Source of the DNA: Massilia solisilvae
GTDB taxonomy: Bacteria > Pseudomonadota > Gammaproteobacteria > Burkholderiales > Burkholderiaceae_D
DNA length: 64,000 bases
Direction of reading: 5' to 3'
NCBI RefSeq assembly: GCF_024753215.1
Contig: NZ_JANUGV010000002.1
Span: 744,001-808,000 of the forward strand
This document shows, piece after piece, positions 513 to 15,378 of this stretch (position 1 is its first letter; each line of letters starts with the position of its first letter). Below the pieces are notes generated by a model. The model was given only the letters and a program-made list of their open reading frames with translations, did no database searches and was not told the DNA's origin. A program made the translations under genes and the position numbers.

Positions 513-2888
513 TCAAGCAACCTGTGGCTGCGCTGCCTTCGCATCGACTGGCTTTCCCGGGTCGCCGAAGATGAACTTCGGGCGCGTCACGTAGATCAGC
601 GAAGGCATCACGAACAGTGCCGACATGGCCGACACCGACAGCCAGATGGCCATCAACAGTCCCATCTCCGCCTGGAAGCGCAGCGACGAGACCCACCACA
701 GGAGCGTGCTCAGGATCAGTACGCTCGCGGTGACGATCACGCCCATGCCGGCCGAATGCAGGGCCTGGCTGATGGCGCGCTCGGGCGTACTGCCGATGGC
801 GATTTCTTCCTTGACGCGGTCGGCGATGTAGAACGCGTAGTCCACGCCCAGGCCGATGCCCAGCGCGGCCACCGGCACGGTATTGATGTTCATGCCGATG
901 CCTTTCCACACCATGAAGGCGAAGGTCAGCATGTTGGAAATGATGACCGGCACCATGAACAGCATCCCGGCGATCGTCGAGCGGTACACGATGGTGCACA
1001 GCACCGCCAGCACCAGCAGCGCCAGCGCGATCGCCTCGATCTGGCTGGACAGGATGATTTCGTTGATGGCCGCCATGACGCCCACCGCGCCGCCGGCCAG
1101 CTGCCAGTGGCCTTCCTTGAGCGGGTTGGCGGCGATGAACTCCTTGATGCGCGCCACCGCGGTGCGAATGGTTTCGCCCTGGCGGTCGCGGAACATCAGG
1201 GTGACCGCGCCGTTGGCCGATGCCTTGTCCACAAAGCGGTCCATGTCGCCCGGCTCGGAGACCGATTCGAGCATCGCCATCAGGCTGCCGTTGACGGCCG
1301 CGTTGTCCGACATCTCGAGGTAGTGTGGATTGCCCTCGTGCAGGCTGGCATTGATCTGCGGGATCACGTCGGCGATCGAGACCGAGCCGCCGATCTCGGG
1401 CTGCACTTCCATGAAGCGCTGGAAGCGGTCCATCGACTGCAGCACTTCGTTGCTCTTGACCACGCCGGCCTTGCCGTCCTCGCCGATCACCACGAACATG
1501 CGGTCCACGCCTTCAAAGCGCGAGTTGATGGCCTTGGAATCCTGGTTGTACTTCGCGTGCGGCCACAGGATCGGCGAACCCGGATTGGCGTCGCCGATCT
1601 TCAGGTTCAGCGCATAGATGCCGGCGCCGACCACCACCAGCAGGCTCACGCCCAGCACCGCATAGCGAGCGCGCGACAGGGTGATGCCAACCGCGAAGTC
1701 CAGCACCTTGCGCAGGACCGGCTGCAGGTTCAGCGGGTGCGCAAAGCCGCGCGGCTTGCGAATCCACGACAGCAGCACCGGCGTCAGGATGACGGCGCTG
1801 ACCGTCAGGGTGGACACCCACACCACCGACAGCACGGTCAGTTTTTGCAGCATCGGGATCGGGCTGAGCGCGACCACGGCCATGCAGGCGGCGTCGGCGA
1901 TCACGCCCAGCATGCCGGGGCGGAACAGGTCGGCCAGCGCGACCCGCGCCGCAATGCGCGACAGCTCCGGCCCATCGACCGTGGCCTGGGTTTCCAGCTC
2001 GTCGTCGAAGCGGTTGACGATCTGCACCGAGTGCGACACGGCGCGCGAAGTGATGAGCATGGCCACCACGATCACCAGCGGCTCGAAATTGATGGCCAGG
2101 ATCTGGCAAATGCCCAGCGCCCAGATCGCGCTCACCAGACCGGCCAGCAGGGGCAGCAGCACGCCGCGCCAGGTGCGCAGCAGCACGAACAGCATGGCCA
2201 GCGTCACGCCCAGCGCGTAGAACACCAGGTGCAGGGTCTCGGGCAGGTAGTGGTTCACCCAGCCGAACAGGATCGGGTCACCGACCACGCGGATCTTGAC
2301 CGAGCGGTCATCGACCTTGGCGATCAGCGCATTGATCTCCTTGAAGACGGTGGCGTAGTCCACCTTCTGGTCGATGAAGTCGACCGTGATCAGGGTGGCC
2401 TGCAGGTCCTTGGAGACATAGGGGCCGTACACCAGCGGATTGCGCAGCACCGCCGCTTTCAGCTCGGCCATCTGGTCGGCGGTCTGGGGCACGTCCGGCC
2501 ACATTACCGGCACGCTCTCGATGCCGCTGGTGGAAGCGTGCACTTCCTTGAGCTTTTTCGAGGCCAGCGAGGTGATCTGGAACTGGTTGACGGCCGACAC
2601 TTCGCGCAGGCCCAGGGTCAGGTCGCGCACCTTGCCCAGCACTGACTGCTGGAAGATGTCGCCCTTGTCCACCTCGAGCATGATGGTGACGATGTTCGAG
2701 CCGCCGAAGGTGTCCTTGAATTTCTCGTGGGTCTTCACGTACTCGTGTTTGGAGGGCAGCATGTCCTCGAACACGGTGCGGACCTGGATATGCAGGGCGA
2801 ACCAGCTCAGGACCAGGGTACAGGCCAGCAGCAGGCCGACGACCAGCTTGCGTCTCTCGACGCAGAAATGCGCGATGCGTTCAATCAT
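513..2888 (-). CDS. RND superfamily (MMPL-type) transporter
   Basis: A 791-residue inner-membrane protein with the duplicated MMPL/RND layout. One membrane helix lies at about residues 15-33, a large periplasmic loop follows to about 210, a cluster of helices spans about 215-405, a second loop spans about 425-620, and a second helix cluster spans about 625-770. The family uses proton motive force to move lipids, sterols or other hydrophobic molecules, without a separate adaptor. It lies between the YCF48-like gene (30 bp upstream) and the DUF1302 gene (75 bp downstream) on the same strand, a common trio. The substrate cannot be read from the sequence; it is presumably linked to the catabolic block. 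Confidence 0.88.
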   Translation of the reverse strand: MIERIAHFCVERRKLVVGLLLACTLVLSWFALHIQVRTVFEDMLPSKHEYVKTHEKFKDTFGGSNIVTIMLEVDKGDIFQQSVLGKVRDLTLGLREVSAVNQFQITSLASKKLKEVHASTSGIESVPVMWPDVPQTADQMAELKAAVLRNPLVYGPYVSKDLQATLITVDFIDQKVDYATVFKEINALIAKVDDRSVKIRVVGDPILFGWVNHYLPETLHLVFYALGVTLAMLFVLLRTWRGVLLPLLAGLVSAIWALGICQILAINFEPLVIVVAMLITSRAVSHSVQIVNRFDDELETQATVDGPELSRIAARVALADLFRPGMLGVIADAACMAVVALSPIPMLQKLTVLSVVWVSTLTVSAVILTPVLLSWIRKPRGFAHPLNLQPVLRKVLDFAVGITLSRARYAVLGVSLLVVVGAGIYALNLKIGDANPGSPILWPHAKYNQDSKAINSRFEGVDRMFVVIGEDGKAGVVKSNEVLQSMDRFQRFMEVQPEIGGSVSIADVIPQINASLHEGNPHYLEMSDNAAVNGSLMAMLESVSEPGDMDRFVDKASANGAVTLMFRDRQGETIRTAVARIKEFIAANPLKEGHWQLAGGAVGVMAAINEIILSSQIEAIALALLVLAVLCTIVYRSTIAGMLFMVPVIISNMLTFAFMVWKGIGMNINTVPVAALGIGLGVDYAFYIADRVKEEIAIGSTPERAISQALHSAGMGVIVTASVLILSTLLWWVSSLRFQAEMGLLMAIWLSVSAMSALFVMPSLIYVTRPKFIFGDPGKPVDAKAAQPQVA

Positions 2889-2918: not shown

Positions 2919-3968
2919 TCAATTCGATGCCAGCGGGGTCCACTGGCGGCCGTCCCAGCTGCCCAGGTCGGCGCCGGCCAGCCAGTAGCCGCGGCCGGCG
3001 GCCAGCACGCGGGTGTGCCAGGACAGCGCGTGCTCGCCCAGCACGCCGGCCTTCCATTGCAGGCCGTCGGCGCCGCTCGTGCCGCTGACCCAGCGGCCCA
3101 TGGCGCCGGTGGCGAACCATTCGTTGCGGTCGGCATTCCAGGCCACGTCGAGCAGGTGTTCGTGCGCCGGCACTTTGACGCTGGTCCAGCTGCGGCCGCC
3201 GTCGCCGGTGGTCAGCACGACGCCCTCGAGCCCGACGGCAACGCCGTTGGCGGTATCGCGAAAGGCCAACCCCATCAGCGAGCTTTGCACCGGCGGCTGT
3301 TCCTTTTCCCAGCTCTTGCCGCCGTCGCTGCTGCGCAGGATCTTGCCGAACTCGCCCACCACCACCAGCACGCCGCCGTCGAGGATGGCCACATCGTTCC
3401 AGGCCACGTCTTCTTCCTCGCGCAGGCGCTGCCAGGTCTTGCCGTAGTCCTGGGAGCGCAGCAGCGCCCCCATCTCGCCCACCGCCACCGCCACGCCGTT
3501 GGCGCCGGCGCGTACCCGGTTGAGCTTGTTGGCCACCTGCGAGCGCGGCACGTTGTCGACCTGGCGCCAGTGCTTGCCGCCGTCTTCGGTGACCAGGATG
3601 ACGTTGTCGTTGCCGACCGCCACTGCGTGCGCGCCGTCGAATGCGGCAATGTCCTGCAGCGACAGGCTGCCCGGCGTGGCAGCGCGTGCGACCTTGCGGT
3701 CCGCGCCGATGGCCAGGATCTTGCCGTTGGAGGCGGCGGCCAGCAGCGCGCCGTCCGCTGCGTGCGCGATGCCGTACACGCGGTCGCGCCGTTCCAGCGC
3801 CGGCGGTGTGACGCTGCCGCCCACGGCCTTGGGTTTGATAAACAGGCCGGCATAGAGCAGGCCGGCGATGATCATCCATGGCAGCGCCGACACAACCAGA
3901 TTGGCCAGGCGTGCTGCTGCGCCCGTCCGGGCCGGGTTCTCCACGCGAAGACTGGAGGACTTGTTCAT
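2919..3968 (-). CDS. YCF48/BNR-repeat beta-propeller protein, membrane anchored
   Basis: About 349 residues. A single hydrophobic helix near the N-terminus (about residues 25-43) is followed by repeated units carrying the BNR/Asp-box signature S-x-D-x-G-x-x-W, seen as TEDGGKHW, SQDYGKTW, SSDGGKSW and TGDGGRSW. This predicts a periplasmic seven-bladed propeller like the Ycf48/HCF136 photosystem assembly factors; such proteins next to MMPL/RND transporters are thought to act as accessory factors. The ATG at 3968 was chosen; a TTG at 3995 would add nine residues. It is the first gene of a unit with the RND and DUF1302 genes, and tandem XylS-type boxes lie about 75-110 bp upstream of the start. 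Confidence 0.8.
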   Translation of the reverse strand: MNKSSSLRVENPARTGAAARLANLVVSALPWMIIAGLLYAGLFIKPKAVGGSVTPPALERRDRVYGIAHAADGALLAAASNGKILAIGADRKVARAATPGSLSLQDIAAFDGAHAVAVGNDNVILVTEDGGKHWRQVDNVPRSQVANKLNRVRAGANGVAVAVGEMGALLRSQDYGKTWQRLREEEDVAWNDVAILDGGVLVVVGEFGKILRSSDGGKSWEKEQPPVQSSLMGLAFRDTANGVAVGLEGVVLTTGDGGRSWTSVKVPAHEHLLDVAWNADRNEWFATGAMGRWVSGTSGADGLQWKAGVLGEHALSWHTRVLAAGRGYWLAGADLGSWDGRQWTPLASN

Positions 3969-4043
3969 AAGGCGATCCACAAAGTTGACGTGCAAAAAGG
4001 AACTTCCAGAAAATTCATTGTCTCGACCCCGCTCCTGCGCGAC

Positions 4044-4077
4044 TATCCAACCACTGCGTGCTTATCCTTTGCCTGCA
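4044..4077 (-). promoter_or_regulatory. Tandem XylS/AntR-type operator before the YCF48-RND-DUF1302 unit
   Basis: Read on the minus strand, positions 4077-4063 give TGCA-GGCAAA-GGATA and 4058-4044 give CGCA-GTGGTT-GGATA, separated by 4 bp. The first is a perfect match to the TGCA-N6-GGNTA consensus of XylS-family regulators; the second has one mismatch. An ACCGCC element lies upstream, as at the other two sites in this block. Binding by the AraC-family gene at 12942-13937 is inferred. Confidence 0.6.
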
Positions 4078-4123
4078 ACATTCATGGCGGTTCGGCATGC
4101 ACGATCCGGATAAGGCGCAGCGC

Positions 4124-4166
4124 AAAAAAAAGACGACGTGTCCGGGTCGTGCCCGCAGACGTCGTC
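4124..4166 (-). terminator. Rho-independent terminator after the M20-like gene
   Basis: On the minus strand an 8-bp stem, GACGACGT pairing with ACGTCGTC, is followed by eight Ts. It lies about 40 bp past the stop of the gene at 4209 and separates the Rieske/amidase unit from the YCF48 promoter. Confidence 0.8.
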
Positions 4167-4208
4167 AAACCCAGAAACAGTCTTCAGGGAGGGAGCAGGG
4201 CGCCGGCG

Positions 4209-5540
4209 TTACAAGCCCAGCTCGCTGCGTGGCCGTGTCAGCGTATCCACCAGCGCGTACAGGATTTTTTTGGCACAGGGGATCAGCTCGGGAATGTAGG
4301 TCGCGCCCATGCCGCCCAGGCCCTCGGCCACCGGCAGCGGTGCGCCTTGCGCCGGCCACGGCCAGCCCACGCGTGCGGTCGGCACACCCCAGCGGCGCAG
4401 CGCGGCGCCGTCGGTCTGGCCGCCCAGCCAGTCGGGCGTGCCGTGCGGCCGGCCCTCGATGTGTTCCCAGCCGCGCTTGCAGGACTGGATGATCCAGTTC
4501 TGAGGGTCGGTGGTGCCGCCGGGGACCGAGCCGTACATCTCCCAGTCCATGTCCAGCTCGGGACGGCGCGCCTTGAGTTCGGCCACGAAGGCGGCGAATT
4601 GCGCCTTCACCTCGGCCGGCGACGTGCGCGGGTTGACGCGCACGTCGAAGAACAGTTCGGTCAGGAAGGACGGGAAGGCAGGGCGCTCCGGATCGCCGCC
4701 GCGCACGCCGGCAATCCAGCCATGCGGCTTGACCACGCCCGAGGTGTTGTTCTCGGCATAGTCGATGATCCACTTTTCCAGTTCCGGGATGACGGTGGCG
4801 GTGGCGCCGACCGAGCTGCGGAACCCCGGCGTGTCGTGCGGCACGCCCGCGTAGCCCAGGGTGCCGTACACGCGCAGCTTGAACCAGGCCATGCCCGGCT
4901 CTTCGTGGTACACCCAGTTCCATGGCTTCATGATGATCGCAAAGTCGGGGTACATGCCGCGGTTGAGCAGGTGCAGCACGCCGCCGGACATGCCGGCGTG
5001 CTGGCGCGCGCCGATGTCCACCGGCATGCCGCCGTCGGCCAGGCCCATCAGCAGGTCGCCGCGCAGCGGCACCTGCGCTTCGATGAGCGCGGTGGCCACT
5101 TCGGTCAGCGTCGCGATCATGCCCTTGGGGTTGCTCGCGCCCAAGCCGAACACCCAGTCCTCGACCTGCGCCGCGCGCGGCTGCATGTCGGCCTCGGTGG
5201 CCGGGCCGGTCAGCAGTTCGCGTTCGGCGGGCGTGCAGTCCAGGTGCGTGTCGATCGGCGCATACAGCATCACCGAGGCGCCGCCGCCGCTGCCGCGGTA
5301 CTGGGCCTTGACGTTGCCGCTGATGTCGGTCAGCGGCTGGTAGCTGGCGTCAAAGCCCACCTTGCCCAGGTGCGCGGCCATGAACTCGCTGGCTGCGCGC
5401 GTGGCCCCGGTCGGGCTGTGGATGTTGGTCAGCTCGAACAGCAGTTGCTGCAGGCGCTTGGGGTCGATCCGCGCGCAGGCGGCTTGATACCATTGCTGCT
5501 GTTCGGCGGAGAGCGGGGCGGGGGTGGTAGCGGGAAGCAT
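4209..5540 (-). CDS. M20-family peptidase-like protein with altered metal site
   Basis: About 443 residues with the overall M20 (ArgE/DapE/CPG2) layout: an N-terminal hydrolase domain, an inserted dimerisation domain at about 215-330, and the end of the hydrolase domain. The HxD motif survives as DTHLD, but the usual bridging aspartate position reads GASNPKG (Asn), the catalytic Glu-Glu pair reads ADGGMP, the next acidic ligand reads IIMKP (Lys), and the last histidine is not evident. By eye, most zinc ligands are therefore missing, which suggests a non-canonical activity or a non-enzymatic role. The ATG at 5540 has a good AAGGAA site; an upstream ATG at 5561 is possible. It is the last gene of the Rieske unit. 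Confidence 0.75.
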   Translation of the reverse strand: MLPATTPAPLSAEQQQWYQAACARIDPKRLQQLLFELTNIHSPTGATRAASEFMAAHLGKVGFDASYQPLTDISGNVKAQYRGSGGGASVMLYAPIDTHLDCTPAERELLTGPATEADMQPRAAQVEDWVFGLGASNPKGMIATLTEVATALIEAQVPLRGDLLMGLADGGMPVDIGARQHAGMSGGVLHLLNRGMYPDFAIIMKPWNWVYHEEPGMAWFKLRVYGTLGYAGVPHDTPGFRSSVGATATVIPELEKWIIDYAENNTSGVVKPHGWIAGVRGGDPERPAFPSFLTELFFDVRVNPRTSPAEVKAQFAAFVAELKARRPELDMDWEMYGSVPGGTTDPQNWIIQSCKRGWEHIEGRPHGTPDWLGGQTDGAALRRWGVPTARVGWPWPAQGAPLPVAEGLGGMGATYIPELIPCAKKILYALVDTLTRPRSELGL

Positions 5541-5567
5541 GGGTGGTTCCTTGTGTGCCATCGGCTC

Positions 5568-6593
5568 TTAATTGCTTGGCGTGAATTGTTCGCTGAAGAT
5601 GTTGCCCGGATTGGCGCCGAGCTCGATCAGGCGGCGGGTGGCGGCGTCGATCATCACTTGCGGCCCGCACAGGTAGGCCACGGTGTCGGGATGCACGTCG
5701 CCTTCGCGCAGGGCACTGACCGGATTGCCGTGATGCATGCCTTCCTGCGCATCGCGGTCGACGCAGATGCGCGTGTCGAGCGTCGGCAGCCATTGCTTGC
5801 GCAGTTCGATCTCTTCCAGGCTGAACAGGGCGTCCGGCGTGGCGCAGCCAAAGCTGAGCAGCATCGGCGGCTTGCGCCCGCCGTACTGGCGCAGCGTGTC
5901 GATCATCGACAGGATCGGCGCCAGGCCCGTGCCGCCGGCCACGAAGATGTGCGGTGCGCGCTTGTGTTCTTCGCGCAGGAAGAACGAGCCGTAGGGGCCG
6001 CGCAGCTTGAGCACCTGGTCCGGCTCGGCCACCTTGGACAGGAAGTTGGACATCGCGCCGTCGGGCAGGATGCGGATCAGGAACTCCATCTTCGGCAAAT
6101 CGGTTGCCACGCTCGACGGCGAGTAGCTGCGCAGCACGCCCAGACCCGGCACTTCGATCTGCATGAACTGGCCGGGACGGAAGTCCATCCATTCGCCCTC
6201 GGCCAGTTCGACCGTCAGGCGCACGACATTGCTGGCGATCTGCTCGACCGAATCGATGAAGGCATGGACATCGTGCGCGACGATGGCGCCCGCTTCGCTG
6301 CTGTAGGCCAGCTCGAAGCTGCAATCGGAGCCGGCTTCGCACACGCACAACAGGCGCGTGCCGGCCGCCACTTCGCTGGCCAGCAGGGTGGAGCTGGCGC
6401 CGGCGCGGGTGTGGGCGTCGCCGCAGGCCAGCGTGGCGGTGCAGGTCGAGCAGCTGCCCGACTGGCACTGGTACAGGACGGGAATCTCGGCGGCGATGGC
6501 GGCGTCAAGGATGAGCTCGCCGGGCGCGACCTCAAAACTGCGGCTGACGCCATCGGCGTAGTTGAGGGTGATTTGGTGCATGTTCTTGCTCAT
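5568..6593 (-). CDS. Ferredoxin-NAD(P) reductase of a Rieske oxygenase system (CarAd-like)
   Basis: A 341-residue electron-transfer component. Residues about 5-90 form a plant-type [2Fe-2S] domain with C-x4-C-x2-C (CQSGSCSTC) and a fourth cysteine in LLCVC. An FAD domain follows with the RSYS motif, then an NAD domain with GGTGLAPILSM and a CGPQVMID end motif. The order Fe2S2-FAD-NAD matches CarAd, BenC and phenol-hydroxylase reductases. It passes electrons from NAD(P)H to the Rieske oxygenase encoded two genes upstream. No separate ferredoxin is encoded nearby, so a two-component system is inferred. The start at 6593 gives MSKNMHQ; it lies 11 bp after the amidase stop. Confidence 0.9.
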   Translation of the reverse strand: MSKNMHQITLNYADGVSRSFEVAPGELILDAAIAAEIPVLYQCQSGSCSTCTATLACGDAHTRAGASSTLLASEVAAGTRLLCVCEAGSDCSFELAYSSEAGAIVAHDVHAFIDSVEQIASNVVRLTVELAEGEWMDFRPGQFMQIEVPGLGVLRSYSPSSVATDLPKMEFLIRILPDGAMSNFLSKVAEPDQVLKLRGPYGSFFLREEHKRAPHIFVAGGTGLAPILSMIDTLRQYGGRKPPMLLSFGCATPDALFSLEEIELRKQWLPTLDTRICVDRDAQEGMHHGNPVSALREGDVHPDTVAYLCGPQVMIDAATRRLIELGANPGNIFSEQFTPSN

Positions 6594-6604
6594 GGTGGTG
6601 ATAT

Positions 6605-8002
6605 TCAGATGCCGGGCGGATGCTGCTTGTGCCAGTCGCTGACGCGCTGCACGGCCATGCCGGCGCGGCACAGGAGCGCTTCCGAGCCCTTCTTGCCGAT
6701 GAATTGCGCGCCCAGGGGCAGGCCCGCCTGCGTGAAGCCGCAAGGCAGGCTCAGGCAGGGATGGCCGCTGACGTTGAACGGCGAGGTGAACTGGATCAGG
6801 CGGCGATTCGCTTCCGGGTCCAGCGCCAGGCCGGCCAGTTGTTCGTAGGTGGGCGCCGCATACGGCTGCACCGGTGCCAGCACCAGGTCGACCTGGTCGA
6901 GCAGGGCATCGACTTCGCCGGTGAAGCGTTGCGCGTCCAGCAGGATGCGCTGGTATTCCAGGCCGGTCAGTTCGAGCCCGCCATCGATCAGGCGGCTCAG
7001 CGCAGGGCCGTATTCGGCCGCGCGGGCCGGGTAGGTGGCTGCGTGCGCCACCGCGGTCTGCACGCCGCAGTGTTTTTCCCAACTGGTGCTCACGGCACGG
7101 GTATCGGGCATGCGCACGCTGTGCAGCACGCCGCCGCCTTCTTCGATGAAGGCCATGATTTGCTGCAGGCCGCGCTGGATGGCCGGGTCGACGCCGTCGC
7201 TGAGCCAGCTTTCGTCGACGCCCACGCGCAGGCCCACCAGGCTGTCGTCAATGCCGGATGCCGCGGGCGCGGCGCCAGGCAGCGAGGTGGGGTCTTTCGG
7301 ATCGTGGCCGGCAACGACGGACAGCAGCGCGAGCGCGTCCCTGGCGCTGCGCGCCATCGTGCCGACGTGGTCGAGGCTGGCGGCCAGCTCGAACGCGCCG
7401 TGGCGGCTGACGCGGCCCCAGGTGGGCTTGATGCCCGTCAGGTTGTTGGCCGCGCTGGGGAAACGGATCGAGCCGCCGGTATCGGTGCCCAGCGCGCCGT
7501 AGCACAGGCCGGCTGCGGTGGCCACGCCGCTGCCGCTGGACGAGGCGCCGGCCCAGTGTTCGGCGCCCCATGGATTGGCGGGCGCCGGCAAGTCGGGATG
7601 GTGGATGGCAAACGCGCCTTCGGTCATGCGCAGCTTGCCGAGGATGATCGCGCCCGCATCCTTCAGGCGCTGGACCACGGTCGCATCTTGCGGCGCCATG
7701 TAGTCGCGGTAGATCGTGGTGCCGGCGGTGGTCGGCATGTCCTTTGTCCAGAACAGGTCCTTGACGCCGACCGGCACGCCGTGCAGCGGGCCGCGCCATT
7801 GGCCGCGCGCGAGTTCCGCTTCGGCCTGGCGCGCCTGCGCGAGCGCCTGCTCGGCCGCGACCCAGGCATAGCTGTTGAGCGAACCGTCGAGCTGCCCGAT
7901 GCGCGCCAGTTGCGCCTGCGTGACTTCAACGGGCGAGATCTCGCCACTGCGCATGAGCTGCGACAGCTCGGACATCTCGAGGTAGTGCAATTGGTTTTCC
8001 AT
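6605..8002 (-). CDS. Amidase-signature family hydrolase
   Basis: About 465 residues, normal for the amidase-signature family. The Ser-cisSer-Lys machinery is visible: the lysine in GVPVGVKDLF (about residue 80), the Gly/Ser-rich stretch GASSSGSGVATAAG (about 155), and the nucleophile serine in GTDTGGSIRFPSA (about 180). The enzyme should hydrolyse an amide to acid and amine, in the cytoplasm. The ATG at 8002 has GGAG five bases upstream; a GTG at 8008 is an alternative. It lies between the Rieske oxygenase and reductase genes, so its substrate is probably an amide made or used by that pathway. The actual substrate is unknown. Confidence 0.9.
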   Translation of the reverse strand: MENQLHYLEMSELSQLMRSGEISPVEVTQAQLARIGQLDGSLNSYAWVAAEQALAQARQAEAELARGQWRGPLHGVPVGVKDLFWTKDMPTTAGTTIYRDYMAPQDATVVQRLKDAGAIILGKLRMTEGAFAIHHPDLPAPANPWGAEHWAGASSSGSGVATAAGLCYGALGTDTGGSIRFPSAANNLTGIKPTWGRVSRHGAFELAASLDHVGTMARSARDALALLSVVAGHDPKDPTSLPGAAPAASGIDDSLVGLRVGVDESWLSDGVDPAIQRGLQQIMAFIEEGGGVLHSVRMPDTRAVSTSWEKHCGVQTAVAHAATYPARAAEYGPALSRLIDGGLELTGLEYQRILLDAQRFTGEVDALLDQVDLVLAPVQPYAAPTYEQLAGLALDPEANRRLIQFTSPFNVSGHPCLSLPCGFTQAGLPLGAQFIGKKGSEALLCRAGMAVQRVSDWHKQHPPGI

Positions 8003-8059
8003 GTTCACTCCATGCCGCGCAAGAAGCCGGCCAGGGGCCGGCCGCGTTGCAGGGCAGCG

Positions 8060-8086
8060 AAAAAGGCCGCGCGCGGCGGCGCGGCC
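8060..8086 (-). terminator. Terminator-like hairpin between the Rieske and amidase genes
   Basis: On the minus strand, GGCCGCGC pairs with GCGCGGCC around a 6-base loop and is followed by five Ts. It lies 11 bp past the Rieske stop and about 60 bp before the amidase. It could give partial termination, making oxygenase mRNA more abundant than the downstream genes. Confidence 0.6.
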
Positions 8087-8097
8087 TTGTCTGTTGC

Positions 8098-9438
8098 TTA
8101 CTCTTCGTCCGGGATCTTCGGAACTTTGTAGCCAGGACGCATGCCGTCGGCCGTGTCCTTGAAGCGCAGGCTGGTGGTCTTGAGCGCACCGGCCACGCCG
8201 CGGCCCGGTTTGGCAATGCCGCGGTTCCAGCGCGATGCCACCTTGCGCCAGGTGATCGGCGACACGTCGGTGGCCACCAGTTGCTCGTCATCCCAGCCGG
8301 TGCCGTCGGCGTAGAAGTTCTGCATCGCTTCGCGGGCGTACAGGTCGCAGTCGTTGAAGCCGTGCAGTGCCAGCGGCTTGTACACGCGGTCGAAGCGGTA
8401 CTGGTATTTCTTGCGGTCCGCTTCGGTCGGGCAGATGCGCACCAGCACTTCCCAGTACTCGTGGGTGTCGTCGGTAATCGGCACGTACCACTCGTACTGC
8501 ACCACATGCTCTTCCGGCCAGTTCTCGACCATCAGCACGCCCGGCAGCACCACCGAGGTACGGTACGGACGGCCCTTGGTGTTCTCGATCTTCAGGCCCA
8601 GTTGCTTGTTCTCCAGCACCGGCGCCCATTTCTCGGTGAACAGCCACTGCACCAGGCCTTTCGGACCTTTCTCGTCCTCGACGGTGGCGATGCAGTCGTC
8701 GGCGGTCGGCAGGATGCCCAGCGGCAGCACCCAGTCCATCGCGTGCACGATCGTGTTGTCCTTGTGGACCAGGATGTGGGCGTTGTCGAAGCCGTTCTCG
8801 CAGGCGATGCGCCAGTTGCCAAAGCCGGTGCGGTGCATGCCCAGGGCCACGGCGTTTTCGTCCAGCACGCTCGGCGCGGCCGGCCACAGCGGGTGCGGGA
8901 AGCGCTCGCTGTTTTCCGGGAAGCGCACCGGCAGGTCCTCGGACAGCGGCGGCACGTCGGCGTCAGGGAAATCGTCTTCGCGCACGAACACGAAGATCAT
9001 GCCGGCCACTTCCTGCACCGGGTAGGTGGTGATGCCGGTGGTGCCGACCAGCTTGTCGTTCGGGTTGGCCACGATGGTCGACAGCAGGCCCGAGTCCAGG
9101 TCGAAGGTGAAGCCGTGGTACCAGCACGAGATGGTTTGCTTGTCGAAGCACATCGGCTTCTCCGACAGGCGCACGCCGCGGTGCAGACACTGGTCTTTCA
9201 GCGCATAGACTTTGCCGTCCACGCGGCGCAGCACGATGGGGATGCCGCAGATCTGGATGCCCTCGACGTGGTCTTCCGGCAGCTCGTTGCTGAACAGCGC
9301 CGGATACCAGTGATTGATGAAGCCCCAGGCCGCATCCTTGTACGGCTGGTATTGGCTCTGCACTTTGCTGCTGTTGGTACGCTCTTCACTGATGCCGTTC
9401 TTGACGACGCGGCGACGCACTACGGGTTGATCTGCCAT
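8098..9438 (-). CDS. Rieske non-heme iron oxygenase, alpha subunit (CarAa-like)
   Basis: A 446-residue terminal oxygenase. The Rieske [2Fe-2S] motif C-x-H-x17-C-x2-H is seen as CLHRGV then CWYHG (about residues 65-90). The mononuclear iron site is seen as ENGFDNAHILVHKD (two His), with an Asp in GFNDCDLYAREAM. These stretches and the ending YADGTGW...TWRKVASRWNRGI closely resemble carbazole 1,9a-dioxygenase CarAa and related single-subunit (alpha3) oxygenases. No beta subunit or ferredoxin gene is adjacent. The start at 9438 has a perfect GGAGG. The protein is first in its unit, behind a XylS-type operator. The substrate is likely an aromatic or heterocyclic compound, but it is not determinable here. 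Confidence 0.9.
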   Translation of the reverse strand: MADQPVVRRRVVKNGISEERTNSSKVQSQYQPYKDAAWGFINHWYPALFSNELPEDHVEGIQICGIPIVLRRVDGKVYALKDQCLHRGVRLSEKPMCFDKQTISCWYHGFTFDLDSGLLSTIVANPNDKLVGTTGITTYPVQEVAGMIFVFVREDDFPDADVPPLSEDLPVRFPENSERFPHPLWPAAPSVLDENAVALGMHRTGFGNWRIACENGFDNAHILVHKDNTIVHAMDWVLPLGILPTADDCIATVEDEKGPKGLVQWLFTEKWAPVLENKQLGLKIENTKGRPYRTSVVLPGVLMVENWPEEHVVQYEWYVPITDDTHEYWEVLVRICPTEADRKKYQYRFDRVYKPLALHGFNDCDLYAREAMQNFYADGTGWDDEQLVATDVSPITWRKVASRWNRGIAKPGRGVAGALKTTSLRFKDTADGMRPGYKVPKIPDEE

Positions 9439-9526
9439 GATTGCCTCCAATCTCCTACGTATGGGAAAGATGCTTCGCACGATGCAAAGCAAGCGATCTC
9501 ATGGTACGTAGCGGCAATAGCGCTGG

Positions 9527-9562
9527 CGCTCCCGTTGGCGAACCCTCTATCCCATCAATGCA
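9527..9562 (-). promoter_or_regulatory. XylS/AntR-type operator before the Rieske oxygenase
   Basis: Minus strand 9562-9548 reads TGCA-TTGATG-GGATA, a perfect TGCA-N6-GGNTA box. Exactly 6 bp downstream is a degenerate second box (9541-9527, beginning TCGC and ending GGGAGCG). An upstream ACCGCC-AATGTTT element is shared with the site at 12760-12795. The arrangement of two boxes with 6-bp spacing matches XylS-type promoters. Confidence 0.65.
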
Positions 9563-9622
9563 TAAAAACATTGGCGGTGTTTTCTCGCATTGGCGCGAGC
9601 GGCAAAGCGCACCAATGACAAA

Positions 9623-9650
9623 GGGCTGGCCTGTTTGCACAGGGCAGCCC
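9623..9650 (-). terminator. Rho-independent terminator after the SDR gene
   Basis: GGGCTG-g-CCTGT pairs with ACAGG-g-CAGCCC around a 4-base loop, with one mismatch. On the minus strand it is followed by TTTGTC. It lies about 35 bp past the SDR stop and closes the dehydrogenase-cupin-hemerythrin-SDR unit. Confidence 0.65.
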
Positions 9651-9684
9651 TCGGAGCGGGTTTGATGCGGTGTTCGCTGTGTGC

Positions 9685-10428
9685 TCAGGCGGTCATGCCG
9701 CCATCGACCGACAGCATGGCGCCGGTCACATAGGCCGATCCTGGCGAGAGCAGGTACAACACGGCCTCGGCCACTTCGTGCGGCTGGCCGATGCGGCGCA
9801 TGGGAATCATGTCGTCGAGCAGGTGCACGTCGCCGCCCGTCGAGCGCATGTAGTTCGGTGTTTCGGTGGCGCCCGGGCACACCGCGTTGATGCGGATGTT
9901 ACGGTCCGCATATTCCTTGGCGACTGCCTTGGTGAGCCCGACCACCGCATGCTTGGCCGCCACATAATGGGCGATGCCGTTCATGCCGCGCAGGCCGAAG
10001 ATCGACGCGTTGTTGACGATCGCGCCGCCGCCGGCGCGCAGCATCGCCTCGACCTGGTACTTGACGCCGTAATAGACGCCCTTGAAGTTCAGGTCGATGA
10101 CCCATTCCGATTCTTCCACCGGGGTCTGGTCGATCGGCTTGAAGTCGGCGTGGCCGCCCGCGTTGTTGAATGCGAAATCGAGACGGCCAAAGCGCGATTC
10201 GACGAACCGGACCAGCGCTTCGTTGTCTTCGCGGCGCGAAGCATCCATCACGAACGTCTCGGCCTTGCCGCCGGCCTTGACGATCTCGTCGCGCACCGCG
10301 GCAAGCTTGTCTTCGGTGCGGCCGGCCAGCACCACGGTTGCGCCTTGCGCGGCCAGGGCGATGGCCGCTGCACGCCCCATGCCCGAGCCGCCGCCTGTGA
10401 CCAGGCCTACTTTGTCTTGCATCGTCAT
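9685..10428 (-). CDS. Short-chain dehydrogenase/reductase (SDR)
   Basis: A 247-residue classical SDR. The cofactor motif is TGGGSGMG (about residues 10-17), NNAG is at about 88, the catalytic serine lies in NNASIF (about 140), and the YxxxK motif is YVAAK (about 154). It should oxidise or reduce a hydroxyl/carbonyl with NAD(P). The start overlaps the hemerythrin stop by 4 bp (ATGA), which indicates translational coupling. Together with the zinc-type dehydrogenase in the same unit it could handle a diol or alcohol produced by the Rieske oxygenase; that link is inferred. Confidence 0.92.
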   Translation of the reverse strand: MTMQDKVGLVTGGGSGMGRAAAIALAAQGATVVLAGRTEDKLAAVRDEIVKAGGKAETFVMDASRREDNEALVRFVESRFGRLDFAFNNAGGHADFKPIDQTPVEESEWVIDLNFKGVYYGVKYQVEAMLRAGGGAIVNNASIFGLRGMNGIAHYVAAKHAVVGLTKAVAKEYADRNIRINAVCPGATETPNYMRSTGGDVHLLDDMIPMRRIGQPHEVAEAVLYLLSPGSAYVTGAMLSVDGGMTA

Positions 10429-10955
10429 GCTGCACTCCTTTGCTCAGGCTGAACCGATTCGTGCTCGACAAACCGCGCGATGTGGCGCCTGAGGATGACG
10501 GGCGCGCCGCCGTGGCGTTGCTTGCTGACCCAGGCCGACAAAGCGGAGTCGAGATAGGTCGCGTGCTTGGGAAACCAGTCCGCGAGTGCGGCGGCAAGGC
10601 GCCGCACGTCGCGCAGGCCAACCTGGCCGGCCTTGGCCAGCTGGTTCACCTGCAGCACCGTGTCGAGCACCTTCTGGTGTTCGTCGAGATGGCAATCCAT
10701 CGACGGATACCCGGTCCGCTCCATCAACTCGCGCTCGGTATCGAAGTGCGCAAGCAGGTGATCCTCGACCGCCTGCAGGCAGCCGAGGGCCGTGACGGCA
10801 TTGCATCCTGCGAGCGCCTTGACGACCTGCACGAATTGCTCGTGCGCGTCGTCCATCGGGCCAAGGCCGAGCAGCAGGGCGTCGCTCCACTCGAGCTTTT
10901 CGGCAGCGTTTTCGTCAAAGCCTTCCTGGCGGCCGTGTGCGTGGCGGTGGGACAT
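10425..10955 (-). CDS. Bacteriohemerythrin-like diiron protein
   Basis: A 176-residue single-domain hemerythrin. The conserved ligands appear in order: MDDAHEQF, then HLLAHFDTERELM, then CHLDEHQKVL, and a final His in KHATYLDSAL, matching the four-helix O2-binding fold. It is cytoplasmic, with no signal peptide. It is unusual to find one inside a catabolic operon, coupled by a 4-bp overlap to the SDR. Oxygen sensing, storage or delivery to the Rieske oxygenase is a reasonable inference. The region before the domain, about 25 residues, is His/Asp-rich. The start has CGGAG seven bases upstream. Confidence 0.88.
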   Translation of the reverse strand: MSHRHAHGRQEGFDENAAEKLEWSDALLLGLGPMDDAHEQFVQVVKALAGCNAVTALGCLQAVEDHLLAHFDTERELMERTGYPSMDCHLDEHQKVLDTVLQVNQLAKAGQVGLRDVRRLAAALADWFPKHATYLDSALSAWVSKQRHGGAPVILRRHIARFVEHESVQPEQRSAA

Positions 10956-10985
10956 GGGCGGACTCCGGGCTGAAAAGGTGAGGGG

Positions 10986-11516
10986 CTAGCGCGCCGCGAT
11001 GAGCACGGACAGCATCACCGCCGGCGTTTCGGTCCGGTTGCGCCACGCATGGCGCGTGCCGTTCTGGATCACGATGTCGCCCGCCTTCAGGTGACGCAGC
11101 TCGCCATCGTCCAGCTCGAGCCACAGCTCGCCGGACAGGATCACGTCGTAGTCGACCGTCGGGGTGCGGTGGAAACCGGACCCGTCGGTGTCGAAGGTTT
11201 CGGCCAGGCCCGGCAGGTACTGTGCGTATTCCGCGCCGGCGGCAGCGCCGTCAAAGCCCGGCGTGGCCATCACGCTGTCGGGCGGGAACTGGACCACGAT
11301 CACGCGCGTGCCATGCGGCGCCGGCATCACCGATTCGATGCCCACCACCGGATCGCGGCCGTCGAACGGCAGGGTGGGCTCGGCCCCGGTCGTGGCCCAG
11401 GCCAGCGTGGTTTGAAAGCCCGGGACCGCGGCATAGTCGTGGGTATTGGCCACCGGGCCGTCGGACACGACCACCGATTTGCCGTTGCGCTCGCCCGTTA
11501 CGATACGTCTTACCAT
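10986..11516 (-). CDS. Cupin-domain protein
   Basis: A 176-residue protein whose second half is a cupin barrel. Motif 1 can be seen around FHRTPTVDYDVILSGELWLELDDGE (first 20: positions about 117-136), with a typical G-E-L turn. Motif 2 lies in LKAGDIVIQNGTRHAWRNRT. The motif-1 histidines are replaced by other residues (Thr, Asp), so metal binding may be altered. It is likely either an enzyme of a small-molecule pathway or a sensor-like protein. It lies 30 bp downstream of the dehydrogenase gene, with AAGGAG before the ATG at 11516. The precise role is unknown. Confidence 0.8.
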   Translation of the reverse strand: MVRRIVTGERNGKSVVVSDGPVANTHDYAAVPGFQTTLAWATTGAEPTLPFDGRDPVVGIESVMPAPHGTRVIVVQFPPDSVMATPGFDGAAAGAEYAQYLPGLAETFDTDGSGFHRTPTVDYDVILSGELWLELDDGELRHLKAGDIVIQNGTRHAWRNRTETPAVMLSVLIAAR

Positions 11517-11545
11517 GTTCAGACTCCTTGTTGTTGGATGTGCGC

Positions 11546-12661
11546 TTACTGCACGATCACGACGTTGACAAAACCGCCCTTGCGCTGTTCCGCGTCGGCC
11601 AGGGCTTCGTTGGCTTGCTCGAGCGTGTAGCGGTGATGGTCGAACACGTTCAGGTCGAGCGTGCCGGCAGCGGCCATGTAGGCCAGGTCCTGGCCTTCGC
11701 CCACCGAGAACCACAGCGAACCGAGGACGCTGATCTGCGAGCACATCAGCTCGTGCAGGTTCAGCGGCAGCGGGTCGTTCATTGCACCCACCTCGACCAG
11801 GCGGCCGCCGCGGCGCAGCGCGCCGATGCAGTCGAGCGTGACCTGGTGCGGCGCGCCCGGGCCGATCGCGTCCAGCACTGCGTCCACGCCCACGCCACCG
11901 GTCTCGCTGCGCACCCAGTCGCCCAGGTTGCCGGAGCCGTGCGAGAAGACGCGGATACGCTCGGGATCGAGCGCGCGCACGCGTTCGAGCAGGTCGGCAT
12001 TGCGCGCCACGCAGAAGATCTTGACCGCGCCCATCGCGCGCGCGATCTGCACCGCGCCCAGGCCCAGGGTGCCGCTGGCGCCGCTGATCAGCACGGTCTT
12101 GCCGGCCGCCACACCTGCCTTGCGCAAGCCGGAATAGGCGGTGCCCAGGTAGCCGAAGCGGGCCGCTTGCTCGAAGCTGACCGCAGGCGGCAGCTTGACC
12201 AGGCCGTCCGCCGGGGCGGTGGCGTACTGGCCAAAGCCGCCGTACGGGTACTGCTTGTAGATGTCCTTGGAGCGCGGCCCGAAGCCGAAGTAGCCCTGGA
12301 AGGTGTATGCGACGCAGTTGGTCGGCTCGCCCATGCGGCAGGCGTGGCACGAGCCGCAGGAACGGCCCGGGTTGATGTACACGCGGTCGCCCGGTGCGAT
12401 GCCGGTGACGGCGGCGCCGACTTCGGCCACCACCCCGGCGGTATCCAGGCCGTAGATCGCGGGCAGGTCCGGCACGGTGAGGTAGGAACGCTCGCCGTAG
12501 TTGCTCATCACATTGCGCAGGTTCGGCACCACGCCGGATGCCTTGACCTGGACCAGGACGTCGGTGGGACGCAGCAGCGTGGGCAGCGGCAGCGTATCGA
12601 GCTGGAAGCGGCCGCCAGGCTCGTGGATGCGCATTGCCTTCATCGTGTTCAGGGCGTTCAT
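11546..12661 (-). CDS. Zinc-type medium-chain alcohol dehydrogenase-like protein
   Basis: A 371-residue MDR protein. The four-cysteine structural zinc lobe is complete (CGSCHACRMGEPTNC, about residues 101-115), and the NAD(P) Rossmann motif GASGTLGLGAVQ is at about 193. The usual catalytic-zinc cysteine is replaced (SGVVPNLRN), and the GHE motif reads GLDTAG, so the catalytic zinc is probably absent. Such proteins act as reductases or dehydrogenases without catalytic metal. The start at 12661 follows AAGGAG; upstream in-frame codons extend into the promoter. It is first in the unit with cupin, hemerythrin and SDR. Confidence 0.88.
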   Translation of the reverse strand: MNALNTMKAMRIHEPGGRFQLDTLPLPTLLRPTDVLVQVKASGVVPNLRNVMSNYGERSYLTVPDLPAIYGLDTAGVVAEVGAAVTGIAPGDRVYINPGRSCGSCHACRMGEPTNCVAYTFQGYFGFGPRSKDIYKQYPYGGFGQYATAPADGLVKLPPAVSFEQAARFGYLGTAYSGLRKAGVAAGKTVLISGASGTLGLGAVQIARAMGAVKIFCVARNADLLERVRALDPERIRVFSHGSGNLGDWVRSETGGVGVDAVLDAIGPGAPHQVTLDCIGALRRGGRLVEVGAMNDPLPLNLHELMCSQISVLGSLWFSVGEGQDLAYMAAAGTLDLNVFDHHRYTLEQANEALADAEQRKGGFVNVVIVQ

Positions 12662-12759
12662 GTCTGTCTCCTTGGTGTGATCGTCGGTTCGCGGTCCACG
12701 GCGTGGCCGGCGAACGGCTGTGTTGAACGTCGATCCTAGGGCACAGGGAACCCGGCTCA

Positions 12760-12795
12760 CACTCCCGTGCGCGAAGCGCTTATCCCGGCAATGCA
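12760..12795 (-). promoter_or_regulatory. XylS/AntR-type operator before the dehydrogenase unit
   Basis: Minus strand 12795-12781 reads TGCA-TTGCCG-GGATA. Six bp further on is the degenerate box at 12774-12760 (TCGC...GGGAGTG), nearly the same as at the Rieske promoter. The upstream element ACCGCAGCGTTT is also shared. It lies about 100 bp before the start codon at 12661. Confidence 0.65.
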
Positions 12796-12886
12796 GGAAA
12801 CGCTGCGGTGCTTGGCACGACGGGGATAGCCGCTGGCGCGACGCGCGGCGGCCGGGAGGGCATCAGGGAGGGAAAGGGCAGGAGAC

Positions 12887-12941: not shown

Positions 12942-13937
12942 TCAGGAACGCTGCAGCGTTTCGGACGGAGTTTCGCCGAAACGGCGCTTGTAGTCGGTCG
13001 TGAAGTGGCCGAGATGGCTGAAGCCCCAGCGGAATGCGACGGTGGTGACCGCGCCGCTGGAAGGCGGCGTGCGCAGGAGTTCTTCGTGCACCCGGCGCAG
13101 GCGCACCTCCTTCAGGAAGTGCATGGGCGAGGTGTTGCGGAAGCGGCGAAAGCCGGCAAACAGCGAGCGCGTGCTGACGCCGGCGTATTCCGCCAGGTCG
13201 CCCACCGAGATCGGCTCGTGGGCATGCTCCTCGATGTACTGCTCGATGCGCTTGACGAAGGACGGCGCGATCGACTGCCCCTTTTCCTCGCACAGTTCGG
13301 CACTGTAGTTGTTCGGCTGGCAACTGAGCAGCATGCCGACGAAGGTGGTCTCGAACTGGGTGCTGAGCAGGGGCGAGAGCTTGTCCGAGGTGGACAGCAC
13401 GTCGCACATCCATGCCAGCATCTTGACCATGTTGCGCCCGTCCGGCGTGTCCAGGTTCATGACCGCGTCGAACTCGACATCCTTGTGCAAGGTGCGGCCC
13501 AGGTGCTGCTGGCACTGGCGCCGGACCACCTCGTTATCGACCCGGATGATGATCTTGTCGCCACCAAAGTGGTGGATGCGCGTGCGCGCATGCGAGTTCA
13601 GCACCACGCCCTGGGTGGACTCGAACAGGGCGCGCTTGCCGTCGGACTCGATGAACTCGCGCCCGCTGATCGGCACCTGGACCAGTGAAAACAACTCCAT
13701 CACGTCCGGGTCGATGACGGTCTCGCCGCCATAGGTCATGCGGCCCACGCCCAGGCTGTTGACGCGCCGGTAATTGACGCGCGTGTTGAACTTTGGGTCT
13801 TTGGAGTAGATCTTGTTACTGCAGAAAATGCGCTCGCCTACCGAGCGCGCCTCCTCGATGTCGGAGGTCTGACACAGGCCGTAGTCGGACAGGACGTTGT
13901 CCGCCGGCATGAGGGAGGGGAAAACACTGTGCGCCAT
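12942..13937 (-). CDS. AraC/XylS-family transcriptional activator
   Basis: A 331-residue regulator. Residues about 1-200 resemble the AraC-binding-like (PF14525) effector domain found in XylS, AntR and similar proteins. Residues about 225-328 contain the double helix-turn-helix: ISVGDLAEYAGVSTRSLFAG, then VAFRWGFSHLGHFTTDYKRR, ending with FGETPSETL. It lies at the head of the catabolic block in the same orientation. TGCA-N6-GGATA sites of the kind bound by XylS relatives precede all three downstream units, so it is very likely their activator. The effector is unknown; in relatives it is an aromatic acid such as benzoate or anthranilate. Confidence 0.92.
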   Translation of the reverse strand: MAHSVFPSLMPADNVLSDYGLCQTSDIEEARSVGERIFCSNKIYSKDPKFNTRVNYRRVNSLGVGRMTYGGETVIDPDVMELFSLVQVPISGREFIESDGKRALFESTQGVVLNSHARTRIHHFGGDKIIIRVDNEVVRRQCQQHLGRTLHKDVEFDAVMNLDTPDGRNMVKMLAWMCDVLSTSDKLSPLLSTQFETTFVGMLLSCQPNNYSAELCEEKGQSIAPSFVKRIEQYIEEHAHEPISVGDLAEYAGVSTRSLFAGFRRFRNTSPMHFLKEVRLRRVHEELLRTPPSSGAVTTVAFRWGFSHLGHFTTDYKRRFGETPSETLQRS

Positions 13938-14225: not shown

Positions 14226-15368
14226 TCACATCGCCGGGCGGGGCGCGCGCGCAGCCTGTGCGCGCGCGCGCACCTTGTGCCGCCAGCGGATGACGCCGGT
14301 GACGAACAGGAGCAGCGGAACGAAGCCCGACAGGAACACCGCCGCGCGGCCGACAATCCCGAACGCTTCGCCGTTGTGCAGGGGATGGAACCAGTAGGAC
14401 ATGCGCGCTCCCGTGTTGGCCGCGAGCGGGTCATGCGCGGCCAGGATCGCGCCGCTGCCCGCGTCGAGCCAGACCCGGGTTTGGGGGAAGCGGCGGCTTG
14501 GCTCGGACGGCTGGCGCATGCGCAGCGATATGGGCGTGTGCGCGGCGCCGCTGGTTTCCACCCAGCGGACTTCGGCGTCAGGAAAGCGCGCCCTGGCGGT
14601 GGCGATGGCCTGGTCGAGCGACACCGTATCGTGTTCGTGCACCGTCGCGGACGGGCTGGTCATCGGCGCCGCCGCGGACGGGCTGGAACCCAGGAGCGTG
14701 CGCGTCTGCTCGGGAAATGCCAGCGCGCTGCCGGTGAGCGCGAGCACGGCCAGCAAGGGCAGCCAGTACACACCGCTGGAACAGTGCATGTCGTATGCCC
14801 GCCGCACGGCGCCGGGGCGCGGCACGATGCGCAGGGCGGTCCAGAACCTGGCCTTGGACGGCCACCACAACTGTATGCCCGTCACCATCACGGCGAAACA
14901 CAGGATGCCGGCCAGACCCACCAGCACCAGGCCGGGTTTGCCCGACAACAGCGTGTAGTGCAGGTCGAACAGCCAGGTCACCACCGTGTCGCCCCAGAAC
15001 CGCTTGCTGGTCACTTGCAGCGTCGCGGGGTCCAGGGTCACCAGCAGCGGCGCGAAGTAGCTGCCGGCGCGCTCGGCCGGATGGTAGTAGCGCGCCATCA
15101 CCGGCGTGTCCTGGTCGAGCGGCAGCTCGATGCGCCACGGGCCGTCACGCTCCGGATAGGTTTGGCGCAGCGCCTGGTGGATCGACTCCACTGGCGGCAA
15201 GGCGGCAACCGCGTGCTCGACCCGGGTGTGCGGGTTGAGCGCGCGGTCGATGTCGAGGTAGAACACGAGGGCGCTGCCGGTCAGGCCGAGCAGGACGAAC
15301 CAGAGCCCCACCACCAGGCCGCTCCAGAAGTGAAGCGCAAGGACGATGCGCCGGACCGGACTTGCCAT
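14226..15368 (-). CDS. PepSY-associated membrane protein (PiuB-like)
   Basis: A 380-residue inner-membrane protein with the four-helix PepSY_TM layout: helices at about 7-35 (LHFWSGLVVGLWFVLLGLTG), about 140-165, about 190-210 and about 335-360, with periplasmic domains between. Histidines in the helices (LHFWSG, DLHYTLL, YDMHCSSG, FHPLHNG) are typical and may bind heme or metal. The family is common next to TonB-dependent siderophore receptors and is thought to act as an inner-membrane ferric reductase. It lies 10 bp downstream of the TonB receptor gene, so the two are one operon. Confidence 0.87.
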   Translation of the reverse strand: MASPVRRIVLALHFWSGLVVGLWFVLLGLTGSALVFYLDIDRALNPHTRVEHAVAALPPVESIHQALRQTYPERDGPWRIELPLDQDTPVMARYYHPAERAGSYFAPLLVTLDPATLQVTSKRFWGDTVVTWLFDLHYTLLSGKPGLVLVGLAGILCFAVMVTGIQLWWPSKARFWTALRIVPRPGAVRRAYDMHCSSGVYWLPLLAVLALTGSALAFPEQTRTLLGSSPSAAAPMTSPSATVHEHDTVSLDQAIATARARFPDAEVRWVETSGAAHTPISLRMRQPSEPSRRFPQTRVWLDAGSGAILAAHDPLAANTGARMSYWFHPLHNGEAFGIVGRAAVFLSGFVPLLLFVTGVIRWRHKVRARAQAARAPRPAM

Positions 15369-15378
15369 GTGCGCCGCC

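Follow-up and report, generated by a model that had tools for sequence, protein, structure and literature searches.

Within a 64,000-nucleotide (nt) stretch of the Massilia solisilvae genome (contig NZ_JANUGV010000002.1, positions 744,001 to 808,000; hereafter the window), one shared operator, a TGCA-N6-GGATA box on the minus strand, precedes three sets of genes. The three boxes are very probably the operators of a single OxoS-like activator of the AraC/XylS type, encoded at 12942-13937, which would switch on a regulon for 2-oxoquinoline (quinoline-type) catabolism. An earlier reading of the sequence only (hereafter the sequence-only reading) had located the same boxes and regarded 14 kb as a single aromatic-responsive regulon. 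The shared operator was confirmed, and the interpretation, in which a XylS-like operator at three promoters is served by the regulator at 12942, is supported. The idea of one regulon is supported as well, but the oxygenase OxoO points to the catabolism of N-heterocycles, not of aromatic acids. At the level of sequence, the boxes, their partner half-sites, the uniqueness of the pairs in the genome and their co-occurrence with the regulator are established.

OxoO resembles the solved 2-oxoquinoline 8-monooxygenase over nearly its full length (PDB 1z01; 912 bits over residues 1-444, 82% identity), whereas carbazole oxygenases reached at most 309 bits. The oxoO gene lies under the regulator's box, as expected for a member of an OxoS regulon. 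Carl and Fetzner are said to have found in 2005 that OxoS controls the quinoline operons of Pseudomonas putida 86 and that OxoS sites resemble XylS sites. That regulon shares with the window an OxoO orthologue, an AraC/XylS-type regulator nearby and XylS-like sites upstream of catabolic units. It differs in that the genome here is Massilia-like and the units are oxoO-amidase-reductase-M20, alcohol dehydrogenase (ADH)-cupin-hemerythrin-SDR and YCF48/RND. This type of wiring is already known; what is new is the host.

The box pairs are unique in the genome

Four exact copies of TGCA-N6-GGATA were found in the window, compared with a mean of 0.13 and a maximum of one in 100 shuffles. The whole genome (5,208,655 bases) contained 18 exact single boxes, four of them within these 8.7 kb, and the reversed pattern, which served as the control in own-genome motif scans, gave two matches. 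When the box was combined with a second half-site (TGCA-N6-GGNTA-N13..16-GGAKHG, the pair pattern), the genome yielded three matches, exactly the three promoters, and one for the reversed control. A genome-wide scan had been proposed in the sequence-only reading; the single box proved not to be unique, but none of the 14 extra boxes has a second half-site. Every one of these 14 lies inside at least one mechanical open reading frame, which is weak evidence in GC-rich DNA. The TGCG variant with GGATA had no match in the own-genome scan, and pair patterns revealed no further units in this genome, although weaker boxes could escape these patterns.

We derived a matrix (consensus TGCAcTgnCGGGATA) from 89 distinct sites found in relatives, leaving out the window genome and locus L029. 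Applied to the window, it placed ranks 1, 2, 4, 5, 6 and 8 on the boxes listed in Table 1, and ranks 3 and 7 elsewhere (24553 and 50665). Chance matches to a degenerate motif, which the 18 single boxes might suggest, are an extremely improbable explanation in view of the excess over shuffles, the uniqueness of the pairs, the matrix ranks, the pattern in family genomes and the co-occurrence with the regulator; this explanation is already contradicted because the box is conserved.

Promoter architecture

All three promoter boxes match TGCA-N6-GGNTA exactly, as operators of the XylS/BenR type do, and each is followed by a tandem second box abutting or overlapping the -35 position, with 21, 21 and 22 nt to the putative -10 of promoters 1, 2 and 3, respectively. 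Promoter 1 has, as previously described, a second box with one mismatch (seven of eight fixed positions), and the gap there is 4 bp. A 6-bp gap had been claimed for promoters 2 and 3, but this spacing gives two and three of the eight fixed positions. We assigned a 5-bp gap instead, since it gives four of eight in both promoters and agrees with the 20-bp period at which relatives pair GGGAGC with GGGATA (42 of 43 oxoO sites, window and L029 included). The period of the GGA half-site is 19 in most Massilia-type YCF48 sites, while seven YCF48 sites were without a GGA half-site. In 79 of 91 sites, TAnnnT lay 20-22 nt past the half-site, compared with a mean of 4.7 and a maximum of 10 in 200 shuffles. 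At the place matching the putative -10 of promoter 1, GAnAAT occurs in L029, L030, L031 and L033.

This arrangement resembles the XylS-dependent promoter Pm of the TOL plasmid pWW0, which has tandem TGCA-N6-GGNTA boxes and 21-22 nt from the second half to the -10. Read directly, the pWW0 Pm sequence shows its two boxes separated by 6 bp, with TAGGCT at a distance of 21 nt from the second one. The geometry is therefore of the XylS-activator type, only with the period shortened. The differences from XylS/Pm are the period (20 or 19 bp here, 21 there), the degenerate second half in promoters 2 and 3, the protein (28% identity between the regulator and XylS) and the substrate class. A 5-bp gap is described for BenR's Pben in P. 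fluorescens in an excerpt of PMC1360089; the BenR system, unlike the one studied here, is a benzoate regulon with other enzymes.

Further elements upstream of the boxes were also considered. ACCGC, which the sequence-only reading had named as an element, is present upstream of all three window boxes, but it occurs at only 6/95 of the relatives' sites, a rate equal to the background (6.3% of the 40-mers in the window), and at 0/3 promoters of the close relative L029, so it was rejected. Inverted boxes, absent from the previous list, lie 20 bp upstream of promoter 1 and 18 bp upstream of promoter 3, and both are kept in L029. That of promoter 1 has mere degenerate copies in L030, L031 and L033, and that of promoter 3 was absent from the five other Oxalobacteraceae ADH promoters compared. 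As a general feature, inverted boxes were discarded, since they had no consistent position outside window promoters 1 and 3 and L029.

Table 1 Operators, putative promoter elements and genes in the window
Feature	Position	Strand	Details
Promoter 1 operator	4044..4077	-	box 4077-4063 TGCAGGCAAAGGATA, gap 4 bp, second box 4058-4044 CGCAGTGGTTGGATA; matrix ranks 6 and 8
Putative -10, promoter 1	4017..4022	-	GACAAT; read by eye; fails TAnnnT test
Inverted exact box upstream of promoter 1	4098..4112	+	TGCACGATCCGGATA; matrix rank 4
Promoter 2 operator	9528..9562	-	box 9562-9548 TGCATTGATGGGATA, gap 5 bp, half-site 9542-9528 TTCGCCAACGGGAGC; matrix rank 2
Putative -10, promoter 2	9501..9506	-	TACCAT
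Promoter 3 operator	12761..12795	-	box 12795-12781 TGCATTGCCGGGATA, gap 5 bp, half-site 12775-12761 TTCGCGCACGGGAGT; matrix rank 1
Putative -10, promoter 3	12733..12738	-	TAGGAT
Inverted near-box upstream of promoter 3	12814..12828	+	GGCACGACGGGGATA; matrix rank 5
AraC/XylS-type regulator, OxoS-like	12942..13937	-	PF14525 + PF12833 (HTH_18)
OxoO, 2-oxo-1,2-dihydroquinoline 8-monooxygenase oxygenase component	8098..9438	-	first gene of unit 2; PF11723 + Rieske
Amidase	6605..8008	-	unit 2
Ferredoxin/FAD reductase, probable OxoR	5568..6596	-	unit 2; adjoins oxoO in many relatives
M20/ArgE-DapE-like hydrolase	4209..5561	-	unit 2; below curated cut-off, no Pfam match; conserved near oxoO
Zinc-type alcohol dehydrogenase family protein (ADH)	11546..12661	-	first gene of unit 3
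Cupin-domain protein	10986..11516	-	unit 3
Hemerythrin-domain protein	10425..10955	-	unit 3
SDR-family dehydrogenase	9685..10428	-	unit 3
YCF48/BNR-type protein	2919..3968	-	first gene of unit 1
RND/MMPL-type transporter	513..2888	-	unit 1

The regulator

The gene at 12942-13937 was assigned as the regulator because of its domains, because its product is 56% identical to the regulator adjoining oxoO in Pseudomonas alkylphenolica (L044; not the OxoS of P. putida 86 itself), and because no other full-length homologue was found in the genome at E<=1e-10. The OxoO of P. alkylphenolica is 86% identical to 1z01. The single other homologue in the Massilia genome is similar in the DNA-binding domain only (34%). 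The same gene had been proposed as the regulator in the sequence-only reading, and this choice, backed also by the pair pattern, the matrix and the co-occurrence of box and regulator, is best supported.

The assignment to the AntR type did not survive. The protein shares the AraC-binding-like + HTH_18 layout with AndR/AntR (anthranilate), and AndR (NF041686) is its best NCBIfam model, but the score of 155 bits falls below the cut-off of 350, and the identity to XylS is low compared with that to the regulator beside oxoO; the AntR/AndR naming was rejected. It is very unlikely that the operator and regulon, although real, are governed by an activator of the AntR/BenR type whose signal is an aromatic acid (anthranilate or benzoate, for example). 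TGCA-N6-GGNTA is the XylS and BenR consensus according to excerpts of PMC5481539 and PMC6449761, and the curated family nearest to the regulator is AndR. However, apart from the poor AndR score, regulator and box travel together with OxoO, an N-heterocycle oxygenase, and no XylS-type site is reported upstream of Pant in an excerpt of PMC1360089. For the OxoS-like activator, the identity of the oxygenase as OxoO leads us to expect a 2-oxoquinoline-type compound or its metabolite as the inducer, rather than a benzoic-type acid.

Co-occurrence of box and regulator in relatives

A contig scan for OxoO relatives (80 of 118 encoding loci kept) gave 75 loci after removal of five duplicates (L037-L041, duplicates of L029 and L031-L034) before counting. 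Together with eight loci from other genomes and one plasmid, 84 distinct oxoO loci were compared. A locus was considered regulator-positive when it contained a relative of the regulator with at least 40% identity, and the best box match within 260 bp of oxoO was graded by its mismatches. The regulator was present in 42/84 loci, of which 23, 17 and 2 had boxes with zero, one and two mismatches, respectively. In the 42 loci where it was absent, boxes with zero, one, two and three mismatches were found in 3, 0, 14 and 25. A box with at most one mismatch thus precedes oxoO in 40/42 loci with the regulator, compared with 3/42 without it. Moreover, the box stands before at least two different genes in 30/42 regulator-positive loci, so that common descent of one promoter is an insufficient explanation.

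The family genomes gave a similar picture. OxoO-like proteins were compared in 392 genomes and the tandem pattern was scanned in 385, of which 29 contained tandem-like matches. The seven family genomes with an OxoO of at least 92% identity had two to four matches each. The other 22 pattern-bearing genomes had a single match in 21 cases and two matches, on different contigs, in G043. No tandem pattern was present in the two family genomes with more distant OxoO-like proteins (64% and 39%).

Several observations weigh against a single regulon of this kind. The loci are mutually related, so their counts are not independent. The regulator-positive loci L058 and L074 have boxes with two mismatches, and L088, a real exception, combines an exact box with the absence of a regulator in the 10 kb seen. 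(The other exact-box loci lacking the regulator are L042, from the same strain as the regulator-bearing L090, and L086, a contig of 5 kb whose sequence upstream of oxoO amounts to 313 bases.) Unit membership varies, since the YCF48, OxoR and ADH genes are boxed unevenly in the regulator-positive loci that hold them (17/22, 21/34 and 8/29, respectively), and some are internal to operons in relatives. Finally, promoter 1 is the most deviant of the three, with a box at matrix rank 6, a different gap of 4 bp and a place among the 12 sites without TAnnnT. These properties of promoter 1 would also fit a regulator that controls promoters 2 and 3 only, with a fortuitous box at promoter 1 and the YCF48/RND unit controlled otherwise. 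This is nevertheless unlikely, given the well-matched second box and the pair pattern at promoter 1 and the boxed YCF48 genes in relatives, Pseudomonas included.

In three loci (L047 5569, L049 5584, L058 6921), a second AraC-like reading frame is preceded by a box with a GGA half-site, which suggests cross-regulation or autoregulation.

Genes of the three units and possible mechanism

The three units had all been described as catabolic. The box does precede three units, but unit 1, which also has a DUF1302-like start, is an envelope/transport unit. According to an excerpt of PMC6449761, proteins of the YCF48, RND, DUF1329 and DUF1302 kinds, as well as hemerythrins, are predicted in aromatic regulons of Betaproteobacteria, possibly for protection. 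Beside the cluster, no quinoline 2-oxidoreductase genes were recognised; the genome encodes six MoCoBD_1 proteins, all of them outside the window.

In the mechanism that we propose, 2-oxoquinoline or a metabolite of it would cause two activator monomers to occupy the tandem half-sites, first TGCA-N6-GGATA and then, 19-20 bp on, the weaker half (GGGAGC or GGATAG). The second half-site would adjoin or overlap the -35 position, and the bound activator may bring RNA polymerase to one of the poor -10 elements (TACCAT, TAGGAT or GACAAT), in the manner of XylS at Pm. Unit 2 would carry out ring hydroxylation and opening, unit 3 later steps or oxygen handling, and unit 1 transport or protection of the envelope.

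The 14-kb cluster hereby gains a probable substrate class and regulator, corrected from aromatic-acid to N-heterocycle catabolism. The precise operator definition can guide the search for 2-oxoquinoline regulons in further genomes and should be useful for annotation, and the promoters with graded half-sites form a natural set.

Two neighbouring regions were noted. Upstream of the regulator, the window encodes a PepSY-TM protein and a TonB-dependent receptor (14226-17442) with no box found there; they probably serve metal uptake, unrelated to the regulon. In the relative L030 (14241-16488), the M20 hydrolase gene is separated from the YCF48 unit by genes for an Asp/Glu racemase-like protein and another amidase; the window has neither at that place.

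Possible different wiring in other lineages

The oxo module may have been placed on unrelated switches, a proposal that we consider about as likely to be right as wrong. OxoS-type regulators with tandem TGCA-N6-GGATA sites would operate here, in some Burkholderiales and in Pseudomonas and Thauera/Zoogloea; in other Burkholderiaceae the switch would be the palindrome TTGACnGTCAA, perhaps with a winged-helix (MarR-like) protein. The OxoS regulon would in turn have extended past catabolism to RND/YCF48 envelope units and, in two relatives, to PAS-chemoreceptor or GAF-EAL units, tying sensing and motility to quinoline catabolism. If true, one enzyme module would use different regulator/operator pairs by lineage, which is relevant to regulon evolution.

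Two relatives have a fourth promoter with a tandem box. In Rugamonas (L038, 1399-1413), the box precedes a PAS-MCP gene; in Massilia rhizosphaerae (L040, 18-32), it precedes a GAF-EAL gene, with a PAS-MCP gene next in line, so the regulon in these two relatives may include energy taxis. TTGACnGTCAA was found upstream of oxoO in 14/14 regulator-less loci of Cupriavidus, Paraburkholderia, Burkholderia and Trinickia (L028, L066, L072, L073, L075, L077, L078, L079, L081, L082, L084, L089, L093 and L097), compared with 0/42 regulator-positive loci. A winged-helix protein (PF13463), encoded at 15240-16139 in L082, is kept in 6/10 of the palindrome loci compared, and our guess is that it could be the palindrome binder.

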